Below, piece after piece: positions 18,185 through 59,556 of a stretch of 64,000 nucleotides of DNA (its first letter is position 1; every line of letters begins with the position of its first letter). Source of the stretch: Citrus sinensis (taxonomy: Eukaryota; Streptophyta; Magnoliopsida; Sapindales; Rutaceae); NCBI RefSeq assembly GCF_022201045.2, contig NC_068556.1, positions 24,657,501 to 24,721,500 on the forward strand, given 5' to 3'. Below the pieces are notes generated by a model. It saw only the letters and a list, made by a program, of their open reading frames with translations. It searched no databases and had not been told where the DNA came from. Made by a program: the position numbers and the translations under genes.

Positions 18185-20351
18185 ATGGCTGCTAAGAAAT
18201 TGTCGGAGACGTTTTCGAAGACCTTGATCGAGGAGGTTGGGCGATGGGGATGCATGAAACAGACAGGTGTGAGCTTGAGGTACATGATGGAGTTTGGCTC
18301 AAAACCTACAGACAAGAATTTGCTAATTTCTGCTCAGTTTCTTCACAAAGAGCTTCCAATTAGAATCGCCAGACGAGCAATTGAGCTCGAGACACTTCCT
18401 TACGGTTTATCCGAGAAGCCTGCCGTTTTGAAGGTGAATTTCTTTTGTTTATTTTAATATTCGTGTGATTGGAATTAAAGAACAATTAGAGAAAAGTTGA
18501 CTCTCTTTTCTTTATTTAATTATTTCTCAATCCTTTTCTTTTTTTTTGCATGCTGGTTTTTTTTAATTAAAGAAAAGCTTTTTTATTGGCATGAGGCCCC
18601 CCCCCCCCCCCCTTTTCCTCCAAAAAAAAAAAAAAAGAGTCAAAATTAGCTTCATTCTGTGTGGATTTTCTGATGCTTAGGTTCGAGACTGGTATTTGGA
18701 CTCATTTCGTGATTTGAGGTCGTTTCCTGACATCAGAAGTACGAGTGATGAGAGGGATTTTACGCAAATGATTAAGGCGATTAAGGTGAGGCATAATAAT
18801 GTGGTGCCCATGATGGCGTTGGGGCTGCAACAATTGAAGAAAGAGATGGATCCCAAGATTGTTTACGAGGATCTTGATGAGATTCATCAGTTTCTGGATC
18901 GGTTTTACATGTCTAGGATCGGAATTCGTATGCTTATTGGTCAGCCTTTTCTTTTCTGTTTCTTATTCTGCTGGTCTTTATTGCAATCAGACTTTTTTTC
19001 CTTCTTGTTGAAGCTGGGCCTGAATATCTTGTGTGCACTTCAAATTTGGATGAAACTCAGGGCAGCATGTAGAATTGCACAATCCCAACCCTCCACCTCA
19101 TTGTATTGGCTACATAGACACAAAAATGTCTCCAGTGCAGGTTGCTAGGAATGCTAGTGAGCATGCACGTTGTGTTTGTCTGCGGGAGTATGGCAGTGCA
19201 CCCGATTTTAATATCTACGGTGATCCCAGTTTTACATTCCCGTGAGTTCATTTAATTCTCACTGGATAACTGTTTTTACCTTTTTAGTTTCGTTAAGGTT
19301 TTTGTTAATACCTTCTTTCTCTCCCTCCCCCCCCCCCTCATTTAATGTCCTGTTAGTGATGATTTGTCTGGGTTATAAATGATCATTCGCATTCTGTGTT
19401 GTTTTTTTTAATTTATTATGTAATTTTCTTTACAGTTACGTCCCTTCACACTTGCATCTCATGGTATTTGAGTTGGTTAAGAACTCATTACGTGCTGTTG
19501 AAGAGCGTTATATGGACTCAGATAAAGTTGCACCTCCTATTCGAATAATAGTTGCCGATGGATTAGAGGATGTTACTATTAAGGTTCTTCTTTTGTTTAT
19601 GATCTGTTTATGTATTTCCTTTGGCATTTTCCTTTTTCTGTCTGCATTTTGTTGCTGAATTTGACATGCAAATGTCTGGATTTTGTCTTTGGATGAAAGT
19701 GATAATTAACCAGATGGTGTGACTGACATTGTAGGTTTCGGATGAGGGAGGTGGCATACCAAGAAGTGGTCTTCCCAAAATTTTCACATATCTTTACAGC
19801 ACTGCCAGAAACCCTCTGGATGAAAACACTGATCTAGCAGCTGACATGGGAACAATGGCTGGGTATGGATATGGGCTTCCAATAAGCCGTTTGTATGCTC
19901 GGTATTTTGGAGGAGATTTGCAAATTATCTCCATGGAAGGATATGGTGAGTTGAATATGTTTTCAGTTCTATTGTATTCGTACTGTCTTTACATAAATAA
20001 ATGAATTTTTAAGATGGTGTCTTGGATTTTGGTATGCTTAATCAGCATTCGAGTTTGACACGTTTATTATGTCTATATAATCATTTCACCTGTAAGATAG
20101 TTGTGGATAGTTTTGTGGTGTTGAGCCTGGTGCTCTGCTATTGAAAACTTTCAGCAATGTTTGTTAGTTTTTTATGATGTTGATTATCATAATAGCATAC
20201 ATGTGATACAGCAACTGATGCATATCTTCAAGTTCTTGATTCTTTGATGTCCTTTATATTCTAATCCACTTAAATATTTTACGCGTGCACAGGAACTGAT
20301 GCATATCTCCATTTGTCGCGCTTGGGGGATTCTCAAGAACCCTTACCCTGA
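18185..20351 (+). CDS. PDK: Pyruvate dehydrogenase kinase, mitochondrial
   Basis: Six exons: 18185-18433, 18681-18939, 19061-19241, 19436-19583, 19735-19945, 20293-20351; 368 residues, against 366 in Arabidopsis. The enzyme phosphorylates and switches off the E1-alpha subunit of the mitochondrial pyruvate dehydrogenase complex, limiting carbon entry to the TCA cycle. Its fold is that of a histidine-kinase-like GHKL ATPase. Visible marks are the conserved His about residue 121 in [12 protein letters not shown], the N-box ELVKNS around 242-247, the G1 box SDEGGGI around 281-287, and the lid [22 protein letters not shown] around 318-339. The C-terminus is [18 protein letters not shown] used the ATG at 18185 ([10 protein letters not shown]), which matches the family start. 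Intron 1 contains a run of 16 C. A decayed copy of the last exon lies in the final intron. Confidence 0.97.
20201..20265 (+). pseudogene. Decayed duplicate of the last PDK exon, within the last intron
   Basis: ATACAG followed by CAACTGATGCATATCTTCA (from 20212) matches the true exon 6 start (ACAG then GAACTGATGCATATCTCCA from 20293) at nearly every position, including the acceptor. In the PDK phase it would encode [17 protein letters not shown] and a stop, against [14 protein letters not shown] in the real exon. It looks like an old local duplication. Use as an alternative last exon is possible but unproven. Confidence 0.55.
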
Positions 20352-20848
20352 ATTTCAACTGCTTCTAAGGAGATTTACGGGAGCCCTGTCATGAACTTCA
20401 ATGCAACATCAAAGTTTAGCAGTTATCAAAATTCTCGTAACTCAATTGATGGAATTATTAAACAAAGCTATACAATTTGTACAAGATATGAATTGCTGTC
20501 AATTTTGGTCCTAATAAATTGGCAGCTTTCTTGTATATTCCTCCTCTTTCTTCATATCAGCTGGTAATTATTAAACATTTTAGTTCTTTGCACATTACTT
20601 TGCGCTTTGAAATGCATGATTATTTAATATTTTTATCAAATGTACTTTTTTTCCCAAAAAATAAAAGAAAAAAGAAAAAGATACTATAAGAAAGCCTAAA
20701 GTTATCATTTATTCTGTAACAATTAAACAAAAATATATCAATACATCTCAAGCAATTTCATACAGCAAGATCCTCAGTTTTGGTACAAATTTTTTAATGC
20801 TCTTCATGTATGTCAAAAGAACCAGGGTTTCAAAATAGTGTTGGGATC
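20352..20848. other. Convergent 3' UTR space between PDK and the Fcf2 gene
   Basis: The two stop codons are 497 bp apart on opposite strands. The sequence includes a likely PDK poly(A)-signal region (AATAAA-like, near 20512) and an A-rich stretch near 20650-20690. The two 3' UTRs may overlap. Confidence 0.5.
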
Positions 20849-22289
20849 TCAGTGCCTTCTTTGCTTCGCACGTTTTTGCGACTGACGGCCCCTCATCTTC
20901 CATTTATCATTTCCAGCAGGACGATTTTGACTTTCAATCTCCCGAACCTTGCGCTTTCTGGCAAAGATTCATAAATGCGAATCAATCAAATGAACACTTA
21001 AAATAAAACATCCGGGCTTTGGAAAGAAATATAATAATATCTTTGCTAGCACACCTGTATTGCCCAAGGGTAGGATCAGAAAGCAGCTCATCGGCAAGGG
21101 TTGCCTTTCTTTCCTTCTTAGTCAATCTGCTAGAAAAGAAATCTGTCGAGGACTCAACTACTGTACCCACCTGATCACAGTAAAAAACGCCAGCTATTTT
21201 GCTTTAGAATAAAAGAGATAAAAGCAACAAACACAGTAAAAGAAAATTAAGCAGAAAAAGTTCAATGTGACGCGATAAACATGCCTGGAAATACTTGGGC
21301 AGCGTTTTTGACTTTGCTTCACTCTTCTTGTAGTGTCTCTTTGGATCCATGGCACTCCTCAACTGCATTATCAACAAAGCAAAAATAAAATCAGATAAAC
21401 AGTCAGTCAGTTGAGAAGAGACTCCATCGATGTCACTTGCAAATTTGTAACAACATCAAATTGGATTATACTTGGGGCCTCTTTTTTTGGTAGAATTAAA
21501 GCACTGGGCAAAAACTAATATATCCAACCCTAATCAATCCTATTCTAACGTATCCAATCCATTCAATCTGGCAATACCAAAACGCACCCATAGTAGAATT
21601 AAAAACGTCAGCTGCTTGTTTGGTATTGATGAATCCAGAATGACAATGAAATTCTTGAAAAACTATAATGTTTCAAATTAAGTTACTAGACCAACAGAGA
21701 GCTAAACAGCTAAGTGCCTAGAGACAGTGGGATATGATTGCAGAAATTTTGAAAACTAAAACGAGCCTCACCCAAGAATCATAAGATATCCTAAAACTGC
21801 AATCTGGAAACAAGCATAATACAAACAAGTAAATAGATAATGCTATTAAAAAAATTACCAAAAATAAAAAATAAAAAGCACAGTTCGTACCTTCAATAAC
21901 TGAAGATCTTTCTTCAACTCAGGAGTTATAGTTGCAGCGGGCATGTCAAACCTAATTTCCAATTTCACCGGAAAACAAAAATTATCAAACAACAGATAAA
22001 TTTTATTTTATTTTCATTAAAGGAAAAAAATGGTAAAAACATACCAGCTTGTCCCGGCGGTATCTTTAATTTGTTTCTTGAGTAATTTGTTTAGCTTTTT
22101 GGGATCGTTAGGTGGCACGAAGAGCCCATCAACAAGCTCCGTATTGGGTCTCCAAAGCAGGCTGCTTTCACGCTGACTTTGGGATTCATTGACGCCCCCA
22201 TTTTTATTTGTACTTGCCGATGATAAAGTTGCCGGCAACTTTGGCTGCCACGACAGACCAATCACTGCCTTCTTCTCTGCTATTGCCAT
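20849..22289 (-). CDS. Fcf2-domain pre-rRNA processing protein
   Basis: Five exons in reading order: 22045-22289, 21891-21951, 21285-21362, 21055-21170, 20849-20957; 202 residues. The Fcf2 family (yeast Fcf2, animal TdIF2/DNTTIP2 C-terminus) is a nucleolar small-subunit processome factor for early cleavages of pre-18S rRNA. Family marks are WFDMPAATITPELKKDLQLL, LRSAMDPKRHYKK, LPKYFQVGTV and FFSSRLTKKERKATLADELL, followed by a very basic tail ending RKRAKQRRH. The third intron begins GC rather than GT (CAG|GCATGT on the minus strand); joining Q to V there gives the family sequence YFQVGTVVE, so the site is well supported. A telo-box lies about 40 bp upstream of the start codon, as is common in plant ribosome-biogenesis genes. 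Confidence 0.92.
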
Positions 22290-22331
22290 TTTATGACTAC
22301 TCTGTTTCTGTTGAACTAAAGACTGAAACTA

Positions 22332-22340
22332 AAACCCTAA
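22332..22340 (-). promoter_or_regulatory. Telo-box upstream of the Fcf2 gene
   Basis: AAACCCTAA reads on the plus strand (TTAGGGTTT in the gene's orientation), 43 bp before the ATG. Telo-boxes are established elements in plant promoters of ribosomal-protein and ribosome-assembly genes, which fits the predicted role. Confidence 0.6.
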
Positions 22341-22979
22341 ATATGTGTCGAGGGAGAATATAAGAGAGGAGGAAGATTAACTGTATTTTATCGTCTAAGT
22401 CCCTGACCTTTTAAATATCATAAAATAAGGGCAAAAGTGATCAAATTTTATCATGCAAGCCACACTCTTTAATTGTTTGACTCCCGACTGACCGTACGGA
22501 CACATAAATTCTTTTTTCTTAATTTTGATGAATGCACAAGCTTAATACATAGTTCATTGATTAATTCTTCATTAGTTACTTTGTAGTAAGTGGGGGCTGT
22601 ACGGCCTTCAGTCACTAACTAAACGCTATTGGTGCCCTTTCTGGAGGATTTGATTATTTTGAATGAGATTAAAAATAAAAAATAAAAAACTCTCCTTGAC
22701 GTTATTACTTTTTGGGAGCTGAAATGTTCATCATTCAAGATCTCGTGATCAAAACCCACACATTTTATTTTTGACACAAGAAATTTTACTACCTTAGCGA
22801 GATGGCACCCACAAAAGTAAATGGCAAGAAAGAAAGACGGTTGCTGTGACATTTTGTTAATTCGATTAACAGCTGCTACATATAGCACAGATTGATTTAA
22901 CAAAATACCTTCTCAAAACAGCTGCCTACACAATGTTCAGCAGAATATTGCTTCTATTCCATGCCGTTAGTTAAAATAA

Positions 22980-25901
22980 TTACTCGGATTCTTCATCTTC
23001 AGAAAAATTCATATCAGCACCATCATCAGTGGCTAAGCCAGCTTTAACAGGATGAACGTCCAATGGTAACAATTCAGATGAGGTCAAGATCTCCGTGGAT
23101 CCATTCCTAGCCTCTGCATTCCCATCTTCGTTCTCAATCAGATCGTTCTTGTACTCGTCATCATCATATGCAGCTCCCCGTTCATCACAAAAGATTTCCT
23201 GCAAGAGCACGATCACGATCACAGTTCATCTTTAGCAAAGTAACTTATAACATATTTCTTTGAGATACAAGTTTAAAAAGATACCTCATCTTCTGGCAAG
23301 GCTTGTTTCTCTGCTTCTATGATCCAGTCATCCAGCAAATGTTCTCGAAGAGCACCCTCGAGGGAGATTGAATCATCGGACCTTCTCTTTATATGGCATT
23401 CTCTAAGTCGCAAGTTGTAGTGAACATAGGTTAGATCGTTAATTCTTTTCTGGGCTGCACGACTGTGCCTTTGGCCATGAACCTGATCATATATGCTCCA
23501 TTTATGCTCGCATCCAATAGATGAGCATGTTTGACTTAATATGCGTACGGCTATTTGTTGCAGTTGTAAGCTACTTATCCCATGTTGTTGCCACCATGCA
23601 GCTAGTACATAAAATACCACTCATCAAAACTACAATATCATTCATACAAGTAAGGTATAGTCATGGTCTTAGCATGAATACAACTCGATGAGATTCTCTC
23701 AAAAGAGTAACACAGCAGTCTAGTGCTATCACCTGGCTCAAGCTCTGTTCTTGTACTAATCGCCAATTCAGTTCCAAAATCAGCTTTTGCAGTAGTATAG
23801 TCAGAAATTTGAGACATAGCATAAATCCTTCTTAACTTGTCCGGCTCAAGCCGAACTATGCATTCATTTAGTCCGCGGACTACCTCTGGATACTACAGGT
23901 ATATAACAGTGAAAATTACTATCAGCATATAAACTAATATGAATTTGCAATCAACAAATCATCATTGTTTCTCCTACCGCTACAAAATGAGGACGATATC
24001 TGTACGATGGGTTCAAGAAATAAGCAGCAACATATAGAGGGTGGTGGCCCAACAAGTCCCAGTGATTATCTATCACGTTCCAGAATGGTCCATATTTACG
24101 AACGTCGTCACCATGAAATGATTGAATTGCAAGTTTTGCCCTGTACATGTCATTATAAACATATGGCATGGAAAGGCTTTGACCAGTATCAACCTTTTGA
24201 AGTACTTTCATTATTGGGTTCACTGATCTCACAACATACAGCACCTTCTTCCAAAATTTAGCATTCAATACAATATTTTCAACCTCTTTTCCCTTATCTG
24301 ACTTTGAGAACCAAGATGAAGTCCATATCTCTGATTGAAACATTCTTCTAAGATCAATCCTGTGATCCAGCAAGTTTTGCAAAGTTGTAAAGCTTGAGGC
24401 AAATCGGGTGACAGATGGCATTAGAAGTTCCTGTCCCTGGGTAAATTCTTTCTTCATTAGATTCAACAAACGAATGTGATTGTAAATGAACTTCGTAATC
24501 TTCTGGGCCATTTCCATGCACTTCCATACACTTTTTAAGTTCAAAAAACCGTCAAGCATCTTATCGATACAATAGGTAGCACACGGTGTCCAGAATAAAT
24601 TCTTTCTCTTCTCTTCAAGCATCTTGCCAGCAGATTTATAGCTCGGTGTATTTTGAGTGATTACCTACAAGAACGGAGGGCAAGAACAATAAGAAAGAAG
24701 CAACATACACACTGGCAGATGACAAATTAAGGACAAGGGATGAAAACCAGAATGGTCAAAACAAGTTAACTACCTGCACTACATTTTCCTCACCCATCTC
24801 TTCAACCACTTTATCCAGCAATTTGAACAAATTTGAAGCATCCTCTACTATGTCAGTGGCATCAACAGAAGACAAAAAGTATAAACCATGTGGGGAAGAA
24901 ACAAAGAGATTGATTAACGTTCTACTTTCAGAGTCTGTCCAACTGTCAGCCATGACAGAACAGCCCGTAACTGCCCAGGAAGCCCTGTGCTCAGCCAGAT
25001 TGTTCCTAATAGTTTCAATTTCCTCCTGTAGCAAGTCACCAAATATCAGTTGGCTTGGAGGCCCAACCAAACCCTGTCCATACTGAGCAACCAACTCAAG
25101 CATATTGTGGAAGTACTGGGAGTTTGCTGCTTCTAAAGGAACTCCTGCATAGTAAAAAAATTTGCAAATTGCAGAAATAATTTCCTTCTGGGATTTTTTA
25201 CCCGACCCTCTCATAATTTTCACTTGTTTGCTAGATGGTGTTGTCTGACTGCATGGAGTTTTTAGAGAGGCTGAGTCAAATCTTGTACTATTGAGTAATG
25301 ACTCTATATCACGACACGGAGACATCTCATTAAAAGCTACTCTTAGCTCTTTTCTCTGTCTTTTATCACCGATCATCTTTCTATCACTGTTCATTCGATG
25401 TAGAGCATCTTTCTCTTGCTCATTCACTTCATCTTCAATATTTGATTGCATATGGGAATCTGATATTTCCTTAGTCCCACACCATTTATGTCTCCTCCCA
25501 CTACGGTGCCATTTCATATTCTCTTTCATTTTAAGATACACATCTTCAGGAGCGTCTTTACAAGGTGCTACTTCTCCTTGAATTCTAGCTAGATGTTGTT
25601 TAAACCGATTGATACCTCCACTAACTACTTTTCCACAATAATTACATTTGACCTTTTTTTTCCTTTGATCTTGAGCAACACCATGTTCCCACCCGGGGTC
25701 AATACATCCTAATGACCGAAGAGGGGTCAAGTTCGAGACCACACCCCTATCAACCATCAACTGTTTTCCCCTATTACTACTGTGCCCAGCACGCTCTTCT
25801 TCCTCTTCTTCCTCAGAGCCAAAGGTCAAATAAGCCTCTTTGCCACCTTCATCTTGCCTGGGTTTCTTACTGGAACTACATCCTTCCAAGTTTTCCCTCA
25901 T
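22980..25901 (-). CDS. BED zinc-finger, hAT transposase-derived host protein (DUF659/hAT C-terminal)
   Basis: Five coding exons in reading order: 24774-25901, 23978-24664, 23733-23892, 23285-23601, 22980-23198; 836 residues, frame intact. Order of parts: an acidic N-terminus (E-run about 30-36); a BED finger (C86, C89, H103, C114) in GWEHGVAQDQRKKKVKCNYC; a DUF659/RNase H-like core with DSWTD at 319-323; and the hAT dimerisation region starting WWQQHGISSLQLQQIAVRIL. The site that carries the second catalytic Asp in active hAT enzymes (TDNASN type) reads TQNTPS, with Gln at 380, and the usual CAAHC motif is CATYC. No terminal inverted repeats flank the gene. An intact, intron-rich frame without the catalytic residue points to a domesticated, DNA-binding host protein. 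At3g17450 is the likely Arabidopsis counterpart. Confidence 0.88.
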
Positions 25902-26400
25902 TCTGAGGTACACTACCTATAAACCCCTATCACAAGAAGCTACTTTAATATCTAAATCCCGCAATGATAGCAGCATATCAACTGCTTTATCCCCTCATCC
26001 TGAGCTGAGCAACACCACATCAAGACAAACTTATAGCCACATCTGATTGAACATGCACAAGCAAATTCAACATGTTACAAATGCATTTTGTTTTTCCACT
26101 TTATCCAACAAAACAAAAGCTCGTGCCTTTGGTGGATTTTTCATTGATCATTAGAACCCATTAAGAGTTAGTAATCAATTTGAAGTATGACAAAAAAGTT
26201 TTGATTTTTCAGGCAAAATCAACAAAAATCAAAACTTTAAAGCTTAGCTTTATCAAATTATTAAAATTTATGTCAAAGCTGAATAATCTACGGGAATTGC
26301 TTGCCGTACCTGAGATGCAATAAAGAGGATCGGTTTTGAGAATCAGTGAGTCGCGGCTGGGTGAGAGCTTCAACTCGACTCAGCGTTTCTAGGGTTTTTT
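25902..26400 (-). promoter_or_regulatory. Leader with intron and telo-box of the hAT-derived gene
   Basis: A leader exon ends CATCTCAG|GTACGG at 26310, and the next exon begins after TTTATAG at 25916, leaving a leader intron at 25917-26309. The 15 nt before the ATG read in frame as VVYLR, the end of a BED finger. A telo-box-like TAGGGTTT lies at 26390-26397. Confidence 0.6.
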
Positions 26401-27119
26401 CGTTCTAAAATTGAACCTTTTTTTAAGAAAAAAATAATAACAGAAGGGTGAAAATGTTTTCACTTAAAACGAGACACAATAATCATATTTAATAATAAAA
26501 TATAAAAGTAATTAATTTGTTAAGTACCTTTTTTAAAGAATTAAGCTAAAAATTGAATTTTATTTAAATAAAAAGAATTGACCGAAAATGCTAGCATGAT
26601 ATCTTATTTTTATATTTATTTTTAATTTTCTTAACATTTTTTAAATAATGGTCGTATGTTTTGAGTTGACTCAGTGAGTCAAAAACCAAACTTTTGTCCT
26701 CACATTGCCTTAAAAGTTCAAGCAGATTGTGATGGGTTTCACTTTTCAGTTGTCACATTATCATAGCCAAATATGCTGGACAACTTTCTTAGTTATACTG
26801 AATTTTACATGTGTTTGGAGCTCAATTTAGCATGTGCCAAAAGATTAGCTAGATTTGCATTTGAATCTTCTAGCTTTTAGTTCCCACACTCACAACTATT
26901 TTGCTTTTGCTTTTACTAAATTTATCAGCAACACAAATATAGAATGCAAAGCATTTGATGAGCAAGAAACTAAGGAGAATTAGATCGGAGGGAGTACTGT
27001 AATAACTGTCTCTTAACAACCATCACTTGCTAAGGCAAGTATTGTCCCTAAACCACAAGAGCAACTTCCTTAGAGTTGAACATTCATACTTTTGGATTTC
27101 CATCTCTGATAAATTTCAA
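26401..27119. other. Intergenic DNA between the hAT-derived gene and the PME pseudogene
   Basis: Divergent spacer, AT-rich near 26440-26650. No gene, RNA or repeat was recognised. It would contain both promoters. Confidence 0.45.
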
Positions 27120-28971
27120 ATGCTTTCTTCAATCTCTCTCTCTCTCTCTCTCTCTTTTCCTTCAATTGATGTCATCGAATTCATTCTTGTTGCTGTTGGA
27201 GCTTCCATTTTGCTTCTTGTGGGTGTGTGCATTGGCATCATAGTTGGTGCAAGCAGCAAACGTAGCAACAAGAATGAAAGTAATGCCGTCTCTGCAAATT
27301 CAAAGGCAGTTGCTGCAGTTTGTGCCTCAACTGATTACCGGCAACAGTGTATTGAGAGGGTAAAACCAGCTGCCAAAAGTAAAACCGCTACTCTAAAAAA
27401 ATTCATCCAAGCCGCTATTAAAGCCATAATCAATATGGTGGAAGGAGCAAAGAATAACTCGGGCTTTATACTTGACACCAAAGATCCTGCTCAAAAGATG
27501 GCAAAGGAAGATTGCGATGAGCTGATGAATTTTGCTGTTGAAGACCTTCAAGCCTCGTTCTCAGTGGTGGCTAAAACTGAATTGCATGGGTTGAAGGATA
27601 AAGAGGCTGAGCTTCAAAACTTAACTGGTTAAGTGCTGTAGTATCATATCAACAGGCATGTACTGATGGGGTCACACAGCCTGAACTGAAGAATCAAACG
27701 ATAGGTGGACTCCAAAATGCTACTCAACTAACCAGCAATGCATCGGCCATTGTTTCAGCCATTTCAGGGATCTTAAATACCTTCCACATTCCACAAAACA
27801 TGGCTGCAACTTCTCGAAGACTACTGCATGCACATAAAACTGGTAATGGTGAATACCCAGAATGGCTTTCAGAATCAGACAGGGAATTATTAGCAAGCCA
27901 AAACAACAATCAAAATGCCTCCTCCAAATGTAGTTGTGGCTCAAGATGGAAGTTGGCAATATAAAACTATTGGTTCAGCCCTTGCAGCATATCCAAAAAA
28001 TCCGAATGGAAGATATATTACATATGTAAAAGCTGGGAGTTATGATGAATATATAACAGTAACCAGAAAACAAGTGAATGTCTTCATGTATGGAGATGGA
28101 CCACGAAAGACTATCTTCACTGGCAGGAAAAACAACCGTGAACGGATCTCCACTTATAAAACAGCCTCCTTCTGTGAGTTCAAATTCACCATACTAGGAC
28201 TGGTTCAGTTCCAATACTTTTAACTATTTCATTTTACTCCTGTATTGATTGTTCATGAACACTGATCTTGCAGTGGTGGTTGGAAATGGATTCATCACAA
28301 AGGCAATAGGATTTCAGAACACAGCTGGTCCTGAGGGGCACCATGCTGTTGCTCTCCGTGTCCAGTCTGACATGTCAGCATTCTACAACTGCAGAATGGA
28401 TGGGTACTAAGACATATTGTATGTTCAAACACATTGCCAATTATATTGAAACTGTGTTATATCTGGCACAGTTGATTTCATCTTCGGTGACTCATCAACA
28501 GTCATCCAGAACTCTTTAATCATCGCGAGGAAGCCTATGGACAACCCAAAAAACACAGTGACTGCTCATGGTCTAGAAGACCGGCGGGAAACTACAGGCT
28601 TGATAATCCAGAACTGCCGCATTGTTCCAGAAGAGCTACTGTATCCTGTGAGATTCAAGATCCCAACTTACCTGGGGAGGCCATGGAATTTATACTCAAG
28701 AACGATTATCATGGAAACAACAATGGGAGATTTTATTCAACCAGCAGGGTGGCTGGAATGGCAGGGGAACTTTCCACCAGACACATTGTATCATGCTGAA
28801 CATGCAAACATGGGCCCCGGAGCTGCAACTGATAAGAGGGTCAACTGGAAGGGATTTGACCTGATGACAAATAGAAACGAGGCTCCTCTATACGCTGCTG
28901 GTACATTTATCCAGGGGAATGCATGGCTGAAAGACACAGGTGGAACTTACTTCCTAGGTTTGAAAAACTAA
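27120..28971 (+). pseudogene. Pectin methylesterase with PMEI pro-domain, disrupted
   Basis: Two exons (27120-28173 and 28274-28971) encode a type-I pectinesterase: a membrane anchor or signal (FILVAVGASILLLVGVCIG), a PMEI-like pro-region (VCASTDYRQQCIERVKPA to VVSYQQACTDG), the RRLL processing-type motif and the catalytic domain. An extra TTAAC at 27621-27625 shifts the frame between LQN and WLSAVV. A TAA at 28408 replaces the conserved Gln in the GYQDTLY motif, and a TGA at 28447 replaces Arg in the QFYRNC stretch. Downstream motifs TVDFIFGDSSTV, YLGRPWNLYSR and WLEWQGNFPPDTLYHAEHAN are intact. The few lesions in an otherwise well-kept sequence suggest recent loss. Functional relatives demethylate cell-wall homogalacturonan. 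Confidence 0.9.
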
Positions 28972-30251
28972 GGAACTCTACAAGAATAGGAACAAATGTT
29001 AGTCAACTTCATAGAAAATCCAGTCTAGTAAATAGTTACAAGGATGAGAGGATGGCCACCATTGGCCTCACCATCCCAGTTATCAGTTTTTTTTTTAAAC
29101 TTTACCAGAGCGCCATGCTATTTTTTTAATTCTTCTGTGCAATAGATTAAACAGTAAAGGTCTTTAGTCATTTAAGATTGTGCATGCTAAATTCAGATAT
29201 GTTATACTCCTTTTAAGTTTTAATTGGATAATCAAATCTCAAAATGCCTATCAATTCGGCATGCAGATTCTAGAAAGGGCCCTCTTCAGTTCACAGCATG
29301 GATCCAAATCAACACAACTACACAAGCAAGTGATTAGGCAAAAAGACAAAAGGAGAATTTTGGGATGATGGCTATTTGAATATTGCAATGATTACATTCT
29401 TTCAATTATTGCGGATTGTCTCAATCATCAAAGAGATAAAATTGATCCAGATAACTGTGTGGAAAGGCTACATAAAAATTTATCTTTTCCAACCAAGAAA
29501 CCAGAAAGAAAGAGATAAACAAGAATGATGACACTATCAACCATGTATGAGTAAGACCTGGAAGTTATCATCAACAACAAAGCTCTGCACCATTTAAGTT
29601 GTTTACAAGATGATTAAACTTTAAACTCAGGCAAAAAGTCACGCCAATAATAGGGAAGACAAAAGTGATTCCTTACTATTCACGTCTAACAACTACCAAG
29701 CCAATATAACATCCCCACCTGATTTGCCTTTCACAAATGCCCTCATTATAACCGAACTCAACAACACACCTAAAATCCAACCAAATTGGATCAATCCTAG
29801 TACACATAGTACAATCACATTCATGCAGCATGTAATGACAATATATGCACCACATCCTTCATGAAAAAGCATCATAGCTTTTGACACATTCAGATCAGCC
29901 TAACTCACAACTTGAGATTAACAACAATAACATTCACAATCAACCCAGAAGACCAAAATTACAGCAAAGAATCATTTATGAGCCAGCAACAAAAGAAAAG
30001 AAAATTCAGATAACAAAGAACAAGTACAAAGTAGGGAGAGAAAGAAGATACAGACAGGCCAAGCCAATCATATTGAAGAAGGTTCGGTACACAACCTAAT
30101 TAACAGTTCAAGAACAAGATTACACAACAATGGACAATCTACTCTAATATCCAAATCATTAATCTCTACAAAGAGTTCCAATATGAGGAAACCCCATTAT
30201 AGAACAAAACTACCCTTATATCGAAAAGCACAAAATCTTTAATCTAACATT
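28972..30251. other. Intergenic DNA between the PME pseudogene and the Cys-rich gene
   Basis: Only short frames without domains are present. The part nearest 30251 is presumably the 3' UTR of the minus-strand gene. No repeat or RNA gene was recognised. Confidence 0.5.
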
Positions 30252-56881: not shown

Positions 56882-59438
56882 CTAGGAATCTTTGCATGTC
56901 TTCTTATTGTGGCCAAGGCCCTTGCACTTGCTACATTGGAGTGACCGTTTAATTATCTCTGCTGATTCGGGCTGTTTCATCTTTGGCCGGCCTGGTGGGC
57001 GTCTAGTGGGTGGTGGGGTTACGGTAACTAACTCCTGAGTTGATTCATCTAGAATAGGTCTGTCAACATTCGGCACAGGTTGAATCGACTCGGAATATGT
57101 CATGCGGTAGCTTTCAGTTGTGAAGTACTTGGAGCAATAATCATAAGGGCTCCTACCAATCCATTCAAGGACAGCAATGGCATGGCAGCATGGTAAGCCA
57201 GTTAAATGCCATGTCTTGCAGGTACAGTCCCAACGATCAACATCAACAATATCGGCAGATTCTCCTCGAACCTCAAAAGTACTACTCTGTAAGTGTAACA
57301 CTTGAAATGATCGGGCAATTGCAGTTTCCTTTTGCAATTTATCCTCCTTAGATGGTGTTAACTTCGTTAGCCACTGATTGGACTCTACACGGCGTGTATA
57401 AATGGTTTCCATCATCTTACCTCGCAATACATCCACCATATGTGTTATTGGCAATTCATGTGCCTCTGACACCCAACTGTAAAACTGTTGTCCAAAGTTT
57501 GATGTCATGTGGTCATACCTTGCTCCTGGAAAATATGTATTGGCCCAGTGCTCTGGTTCACTTTGTGTCACCCAATCATAAGCATCAGGAGAAATGCCTT
57601 TTATGCTCTCGATAGAACACTGGAAACCCTCAAATTTTGGTGCGTATGCAGCAGCATACAAGTCGTTGATCATGAATCTTCTAGCTTCATGAGAAAACTG
57701 CCCCTTTATATCTCTATTAAGTTTCTCAGCAAGGTGGCGCAAACAATAGCTATGGTAGCAATTATCAAAAACCTCAGCCAATGACTTATTCAAACCATTC
57801 TGAAAATCTGCAATAAATGTAATCTGTTGAGACGTTGACACTGCAGATTTTAGTTCCTGTAGGAACCAATGCCAGTTGTCCTCAGTCTCAGCATCTACCA
57901 CAGCAAAGGCTACAGGAAAAATACCATCGTCACCATCTGCAGATGTTGCAGTCAACAATGTCCCTTGGTATTTTGAGTTCAAAGGAGTGGTATCAAGGAA
58001 AAGGAGAGGGCGGCAACCCTGTTGAAAACCAGATATGGATGCATGAAATGAGACAAAAAGACGGTGGAAGCTTGAGTCTTCTTTTGTGGTGAAAGTAACA
58101 ACACTGCCAGGATTGGTCTCCTTTATCTTCTCACAGAAAAATGGCAACAGAGTATACGAGTCCTTATAGGAGCCCTGGAGCTGCTCTCTTGCTATCTCCT
58201 TAGCACGCCATGCCTGAGAATAATTTAATTGAATCCCATACTCTCTTTTGATATCGTCTGCAATGTCCTTTGGCTTGTAATTTGGGGATGCTTTCAGCTT
58301 CTCCTTTATAATATTTCCCACCCAACCTCTAGTTGCCCGATAGCCAGCTTTCACAGAAGCCCCTTCGCATGTGTGTTTTGAGTTCATTTTCTTGATACAA
58401 ACTAGCTGGGTGGTTGATAATCTCGATGCATATATCCGCCAAGGACAACCTTGGCACTTGCATTTCACAGTAACGCGATGACTGTCATTTTTCTTGTATC
58501 TGTAAGCGAACCCATGCGCAATTGAGTATTTATGCAATGCTTCTCGGAATTCACTAAAGCTGCTAAACCTTTGGTCCACGCCAGTGATGGTGTTTTCCCA
58601 CTGTTGTGCAGCTTTACGATGCTGGTCATCACCAGCAGGAAGAGCAGATGCAGGGTCAAAAGATATGTCCAGGCCAATTCGATCAACAATATGATCAATA
58701 TTGCTCATATCAACTACAGCATCAGCAGGGGCAACAACAGGGACCACAGCTTCCGACACAGTTGTCCTGCTCGACCTACAGTATCAAGTGACCATAAGAT
58801 TCTGTCCAAGGCACATTGATAATACATATCGATTCCAGTAAATTCTTTGGCCAATAATTTTGATTCATAATCACAGCATATCACAGTTCATGCTGGTGTA
58901 CAAACAGGCATATTGATAATTCTGACCAAGAAAAAAAATCAATTATGGTTATATGAAACTGATTTCACTTGCATTTGACCTATGCACTGTAATTGCTGTA
59001 ATTATGAATCAATAACTATAAATTGCATACCCAAAAAAGGAAAAAGAGAGAAAGGAAAATACTGTATATGCTACACCTATAAAATAACCACTACCTACTA
59101 GCAGGCATGTTAGAGATGTTTCGGGCAGCTTCCTCAGACTGGATGAACACATCAACTGTTGCAGTGTCCCCAAGAAAATTAAGCATGCGCTTAAAATCCT
59201 TGTCTTTGGAGATACTGATAAGGGTCTTTTTGTTCCCTGGAAGAAAGTACTTAATAGACATGGTATCGGCACTACAGTTAAACATTTCAGCTACTTCTGA
59301 CTTGAATCCACTGAACTCTGTTTCCTCATCAATGTCTATTGCATAGGCCTCGCCTCCATTATAAGACAATGATCCGTCTTTATTAGTTACAAACTCACCA
59401 CCCGATTGACATATAGCAATAAATTTCTTTGTGGCCAT
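56882..59438 (-). CDS. MUSTANG-type protein: PB1 plus MuDR-derived transposase
   Basis: Two coding exons in reading order: 59095-59438 and 56882-58775; 745 residues. Exon 1 encodes a PB1 interaction domain (KFIAICQSGGEF, YAIDIDEETEF, then KYFLPGNKKTLISISKDKDF). Exon 2 carries the MuDR N-terminal DNA-binding region (VKCKCQGCPWRIYASRL, KHTC), the MULE transposase core (D376 in LFLDTTPLNSKYQG, D438 in IADFQNGLNKSL, CLRH near 459-462), a SWIM finger (CTCKTWHLTGLPCCHAIAV) and a CCHC knuckle (CSKCKGLGHNKKTC). Where active MULE enzymes carry Glu in the SN-x-x-E motif, this protein has Gln at about 544 (TSNFGQQF). A PB1 domain on a MULE transposase marks the MUGB branch of the domesticated MUSTANG family, which affects plant growth and fitness in Arabidopsis. 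Confidence 0.93.
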
Positions 59439-59556
59439 GGCCCTGACAATTAGTGCTGAAAAAGGAAAAACAACAAACGCAAACTATAATACCAATTGAA
59501 AAATCATTAACTTACAAGTTTTGCAGCCACAAGCCAGATGTAGCCGGGCAGAGAGA

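Follow-up and report, generated by a model that had tools for sequence, protein, structure and literature searches.

A domesticated hAT transposase gene of the plant BED-DUF659 family in Citrus sinensis with replaced catalytic residues

The window considered here, that is, the entire stretch of 64,000 nucleotides of Citrus sinensis DNA that was analysed (C1:24657501-24721500; the genome searched comprises 300 Mb in 11 contigs), harbors on its minus strand, from 25901 to 22980, a gene of five exons which in a sequence-based model encodes 836 residues without any internal stop, all introns being of the GT-AG type. An earlier note made from the letters of this DNA had described an intact frame over five exons, and its coordinates, strand and exon count are all right. 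A BED zinc finger, DUF659 and a hAT C-terminal dimerisation domain (Dimer_Tnp_hAT) occur together in the protein, and all three pass the curated Pfam cut-offs. The features are:

24774..25901, minus strand: exon 1, residues 1-376, with acidic N-terminus, BED finger, start of DUF659 and Asp319 (GT donor, open frame, Pfam)
23978..24664, minus strand: exon 2, residues 377-605, with Gln380, CATYC and the RF pair (AG/GT, alignment)
23733..23892, minus strand: exon 3 (AG/GT); the corresponding stretch of the sister gene (C3:46.5 Mb) contains one more intron
23285..23601, minus strand: exon 4, with most of the hAT dimerisation domain and Glu690
22980..23198, minus strand: exon 5, with the acidic tail and the stop codon TAA
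25584..25691, minus strand: BED zinc finger, residues 71-106 (PF02892, E 6.7e-07), corresponding by homology to the sister's second finger
24497..25061, minus strand: DUF659 (hAT core), residues 281-432, containing intron 1 (PF04937, E 1.4e-57)
23411..23754, minus strand: hAT C-terminal dimerisation domain, residues 652-722, containing intron 3 (PF05699, E 3.3e-08)

The downstream neighbour (20849-22289, minus strand) encodes an Fcf2 pre-rRNA processing protein (PF08698, E 1.2e-39; hand-spliced model) and offers a useful synteny marker. Upstream, at about 27100-28970 on the plus strand, lies a gene which, judged from its open frames, may encode a pectinesterase with inhibitor domain, and which has a frame break near 27630. 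A second domesticated-looking transposase candidate is found at 56885-59483 on the minus strand of the window: a PB1 frame (59094-59483) is followed by a 633-residue frame with MuDR DNA-binding, MULE and SWIM domains, putatively as one gene, and this order presumably corresponds to that of the MUSTANG genes.

An active hAT element carries terminal inverted repeats and 8-bp duplications. Comparison of 19500-22979 with 25902-29500 yielded 11 exact inverted pairs of 11-mers, all with at least three mismatches in the flanking 8-mers, and a looser scan added one weak, possibly fortuitous pair (22901/29167) with two mismatches in 11 and one in the flanking 8. Within 19500-29500 no convincing pair is thus present across the window gene, in agreement with the earlier observation that such repeats are absent. 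The gene is single-copy: for its flanks on the 5' side (25902-26700) and on the 3' side (22360-22979) the genome contains no match other than their own position, unlike the hAT dimerisation domain, which as a genome query gives at least 150 matches (150 of 979 candidates scored). A DUF659 search of the genome showed no multicopy DUF659 element. Moreover, in a neutral simulation starting from the coding sequence (300 runs at each rate of 0.25, 0.5 and 1 change per site), stops accumulated to means of 21, 30 and 37 with a minimum of 7, and since none is observed, chance would hardly account for an open frame of this kind.

A joint MAFFT alignment of nine DUF659 family proteins, five hAT open reading frames of the same genome (five of the 10 loci fetched) and a stretch of Hermes served to assign the catalytic columns of the window protein, in which DSWTD starts at residue 319, TQNTPS at 379 and CATYC at 404. 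The Hermes stretch was obtained with another hAT frame of the genome as query because the window protein itself gave no hAT match in a search of solved-structure sequences. Since the phmmer alignment with Hermes is gapped across the region of the second Asp, the columns were taken from the joint alignment and from hhalign, which, applied to the nine family proteins versus the hAT set, yields an identical pairing (probability 99.6, E 1.4e-23). The alignment places the residues as follows:

24945..24947, minus strand: Asp319, first catalytic Asp column, retained
24653..24655, minus strand: Gln380 (CAA), second catalytic Asp column, Asp gone
24572..24583, minus strand: CATY (residues 404-407), CxxH column, Cys retained and His replaced by Tyr
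23507..23509, minus strand: Glu690, third catalytic column, retained

The column of Gln380 is Asp in all five hAT frames and in Hermes, so that the proposal that the second catalytic position reads TQNTPS, with Gln380 in place of Asp, stands with two methods in agreement. The retention of DSWTD is likewise borne out: Asp319 sits in the first catalytic column, which is Asp in Hermes and in two of the three hAT frames covering it, and Asn in the third. The column of Glu690 is Glu in 5/5 hAT frames; the Hermes stretch of the joint alignment ends short of it, and in a separate Hermes alignment the Glu of a hAT frame pairs with that of Hermes. Cys404 is the Cys of CxxH, and Tyr407 occupies the position of its His. 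CATYC is thus present as reported, but CAAHC as its direct ancestor, which the earlier note had assumed, is not supported, His being found in none of the nine family genes. Finally, in the RW pair Arg463 is retained and Trp is replaced by Phe464.

According to a survey of plant hAT elements (PMC6027215), D180, D248, R318, W319 and E572 (Hermes numbering) are essential. An active hAT transposase would exhibit this full set; the window protein has Asp, Gln, Arg, Phe and Glu at these positions and hence retains three of five. The D248A variant of Hermes still formed hairpins on pre-nicked DNA (PMC2533014), and the loss of one Asp alone is therefore no proof of a dead enzyme. A dead enzyme becomes more likely because the His of CxxH and the Trp of RW are also gone. 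By analogy with the partly active Hermes variant, some residual chemistry may be possible for the window protein, given that Asp319, Arg463 and Glu690 are retained. That the protein has remained an active nuclease for host DNA processing, its metal site being altered (Asp319, Gln380, Glu690), appears nonetheless very unlikely: the positions of Asp319 and Glu690 are retained in both the window gene and its sister, and the results for D248A (PMC2533014) are compatible with it, but the CxxH His and the RW Trp are missing, Lys occupies the Asp column of the sister, and all three acidic positions occur together in just one of the nine family genes. We also considered, and rejected, that Gln380 itself builds a new metal site, considering the Lys of the sister and the missing Asp in five of the nine genes.

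First-look searches revealed at least nine DUF659 genes in the genome, to which a query with exon 2 adds at least two fragments. Except for the window gene and its sister, each paralog model was assembled from a pair of open frames with the splice points placed approximately (in one case from a single frame); such models are adequate for protein columns and inadequate for codon analysis. The second-Asp column reads:

window gene: Gln
C3:46.5 Mb: Lys
C3:6.15 Mb: Asp
C4:0.61 Mb: Ser
C5:17.9 Mb: Asp
C8:30.5 Mb: Cys
C9:1.40 Mb: Asp
C8:25.8 Mb: His
C6:12.5 Mb: Asp

The second Asp is thus present in 4/9 and absent in 5/9 of these genes; the first Asp is retained in 7/9, the Glu in 3/9, and the Trp, like the His, in none. 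The gene at C9:1.40 Mb is the sole one retaining Asp, Asp and Glu, and likewise lacks His and Trp. Hence, catalytic erosion is common to several DUF659 genes of this genome and not singular to the window gene. It departs from the norm of the family, since a survey of the RNase-H-like superfamily describes DUF659 as having conserved active-site residues (PMC3985635). The window gene and the sister at C3:46.5 Mb pair in the tree with a support of 100/100, and the loss of the second Asp probably predates their split, because both members of the pair (Gln, Lys) lack it. A pattern search for relatives outside the genome gave five matches in genome contigs, none of them a relative, and none in viral contigs.

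The two proteins of the pair share 60% identity. Over 827 aligned codons dN is 0.26-0.28, while dS is 2.4 (NG86), 2.0 (ML) or 1.0 (LWL85), which corresponds to omega values of 0.115, 0.134 and 0.25, respectively; these are rough, because dS is near saturation and the value averages two branches. Bootstrapping (NG86) placed omega at 0.07-0.18 in 89 of 100 resamples, the other 11 being saturated, and differences at the three codon positions amount to 0.27/0.21/0.52. By region, NG86 omega is 0.11 for the BED region, 0.09 for the dimerisation domain and 0.32 for the tail, with two stretches saturated. The rates of this one pair of paralogs clearly speak against neutrality, and the comparison shows purifying selection since the split; the dN/dS estimate called for at the outset lies, at 0.12-0.25 by method, well below 1. 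Lineage-specific changes, counted with five outgroups and with the rows of C6:12.5 and C8:25.8 excluded, are balanced overall, at 32 for the window gene and 30 for the sister. In the dimerisation domain there are 8 versus 0, an uncorrected figure from one of five domains counted.

With these findings it is extremely improbable that the window gene is a hAT element which was immobilised recently or is decaying and has yet to become a host gene. The hAT-like domains would fit such an origin, as would the missing first BED finger, whose remnant has an in-frame stop (see below), but the intact 836-codon frame, the low omega, the unique flanks without convincing repeats or duplications, and the fact that no multicopy DUF659 element was seen all argue against it. 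Consistently, the earlier description of the gene as domesticated is sustained by single-copy flanks, by the lack of a convincing repeat or duplication pair and by the low omega versus the paralog, and it is well supported that the window gene is a domesticated, catalytically impaired hAT transposase.

The most conspicuous difference between the two copies resides at the N-terminus, where the sister carries two tandem units, each with a BED finger. In the window protein, residues 1-55 can be aligned to the linker following the sister's first finger (score 93; none of 2000 shuffles reaches it, the maximum being 49), that is, the protein starts inside the old inter-finger linker, and homology to the same segment continues beyond the ATG:

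25902..25946, minus strand: upstream remnant, homologous to the sister's post-BED1 segment, with in-frame TAG

When the sister's first finger was compared with the whole window, it matched significantly only the known finger, and no BED1 exon was found upstream of the gene. The linker homology, the upstream remnant and the missing BED1 match together indicate that two fingers were most likely present in the pair's ancestor and that the window copy has lost the first. In addition, the second Asp is replaced by Gln in the window gene and by Lys in the sister, and the window gene has one intron fewer. Apart from short scattered matches, no shared neighbour genes were seen at the sister locus (17.9 kb, with about 3 kb on the 3' side and about 12 kb on the 5' side; best 60 tblastx rows and blastn).

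This asymmetry permits a further reading, namely that the one-finger paralog modulates its two-finger sister, with heterodimers binding fewer or different sites and acting as a partial antagonist. That the sister has two fingers and that the window copy lost the first yet remains constrained would agree with this, as would the rice ZBED protein, which is described as nuclear, with BED fingers that bind DNA and with binding abolished when any one finger is mutated (PMC7461821). However, that the two products meet, are co-expressed and share targets is purely hypothetical, and the dimerisation domain is more diverged in the window copy, so that we regard this reading as unlikely. It would imply, again as a rather doubtful proposition, that after an old duplication one copy dropped a finger and became a partner tuning or antagonising its sister, so that a dead transposase would have supplied both members of a regulatory pair.

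We consider it quite probable, instead, that the window gene belongs as a host gene to the plant BED-DUF659-hAT family, that it arose by long-ago co-option of a hAT transposase and that, when expressed, it would by its domain content yield a DNA-binding, dimerising nuclear regulator with a non-cutting core. Rice ZBED, with its nuclear location and DNA-binding BED fingers (PMC7461821), speaks for this explanation. The product would (i) bind DNA through its one BED finger, (ii) pair through the hAT C-terminal domain and (iii) employ the RNase-H-like core as a scaffold rather than as a working nuclease. What counts against this explanation are the 8 versus 0 changes in the dimerisation domain on the window copy, and the retained Asp319, Arg463 and Glu690 in conjunction with the hairpins of Hermes D248A (PMC2533014). 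The earlier interpretation, selection for DNA binding or dimerisation rather than transposition, is right in kind as to a host gene whose catalytic set is broken, but it treats as peculiar a loss common among the DUF659 genes (5/9). Selection for dimerisation may have acted: the omega of the domain is low (0.09-0.22 by method), but the 8 versus 0 changes go against it.

The window gene belongs to a known gene family and is largely ordinary. Among BED-DUF-Dimer_Tnp_hAT genes, class I has one finger and class III two; of 750 genes in 32 species, 390 fall into class I, and Citrus clementina has eight Zf-BED genes (PMC9296551). The window protein has the three domains in the identical order of class I but begins with what was once the tail of the first finger, now lost, and the sister at C3:46.5 Mb represents class III. 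Hermes and Ac-type hAT transposases share the core columns of Asp319, Arg463 and Glu690 with the window protein, in which, in contrast, other residues stand at the second Asp, at the His of CxxH and at the Trp of RW, and convincing terminal inverted repeats are lacking. DAYSLEEPER and SLEEPER have BED and dimerisation domains as well; to our knowledge they lack DUF659 and arose by a separate co-option, which sets them apart from the window gene. Both are domesticated plant hAT transposases (PMC3499209).

Plant hAT-derived genes are numerous and mostly uncharacterised. We take AT3G17450, presumably of the class III type, to be the Arabidopsis relative of the window gene/sister pair. Among the hAT-derived genes of PMC5715367 it appears with salt and phosphate phenotypes, each given as values for two T-DNA lines, and PMC9296551 indicates broad expression. 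A published report of the window gene or its Gln was not found, which carries little weight as most subscription literature lay outside the search. For the window gene alone the outcome is mainly careful annotation. The DUF659 genes of this genome have, with open frames, eroded differently at their catalytic positions (Asp kept, or Gln, Lys, Ser, Cys, His), and the set can be used to test the roles of a dead transposase core and of BED finger gain and loss.

Finally, two elements of ~1.65 kb, 94% alike, were encountered in the genome (L039 4593-6239 at C7:28.5 Mb; L040 4575-6255 at C6:6.8 Mb). They have inverted ends of roughly 100 bp and perfect 10-bp duplications, and contain a 306-bp piece which is 98% identical to the DUF659 gene at C8:30.5 Mb. 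By their appearance they are Mutator-type elements which have taken up part of an ex-transposase, and one of their ends as query yields at least 41 matches (40 of 238 candidates scored).
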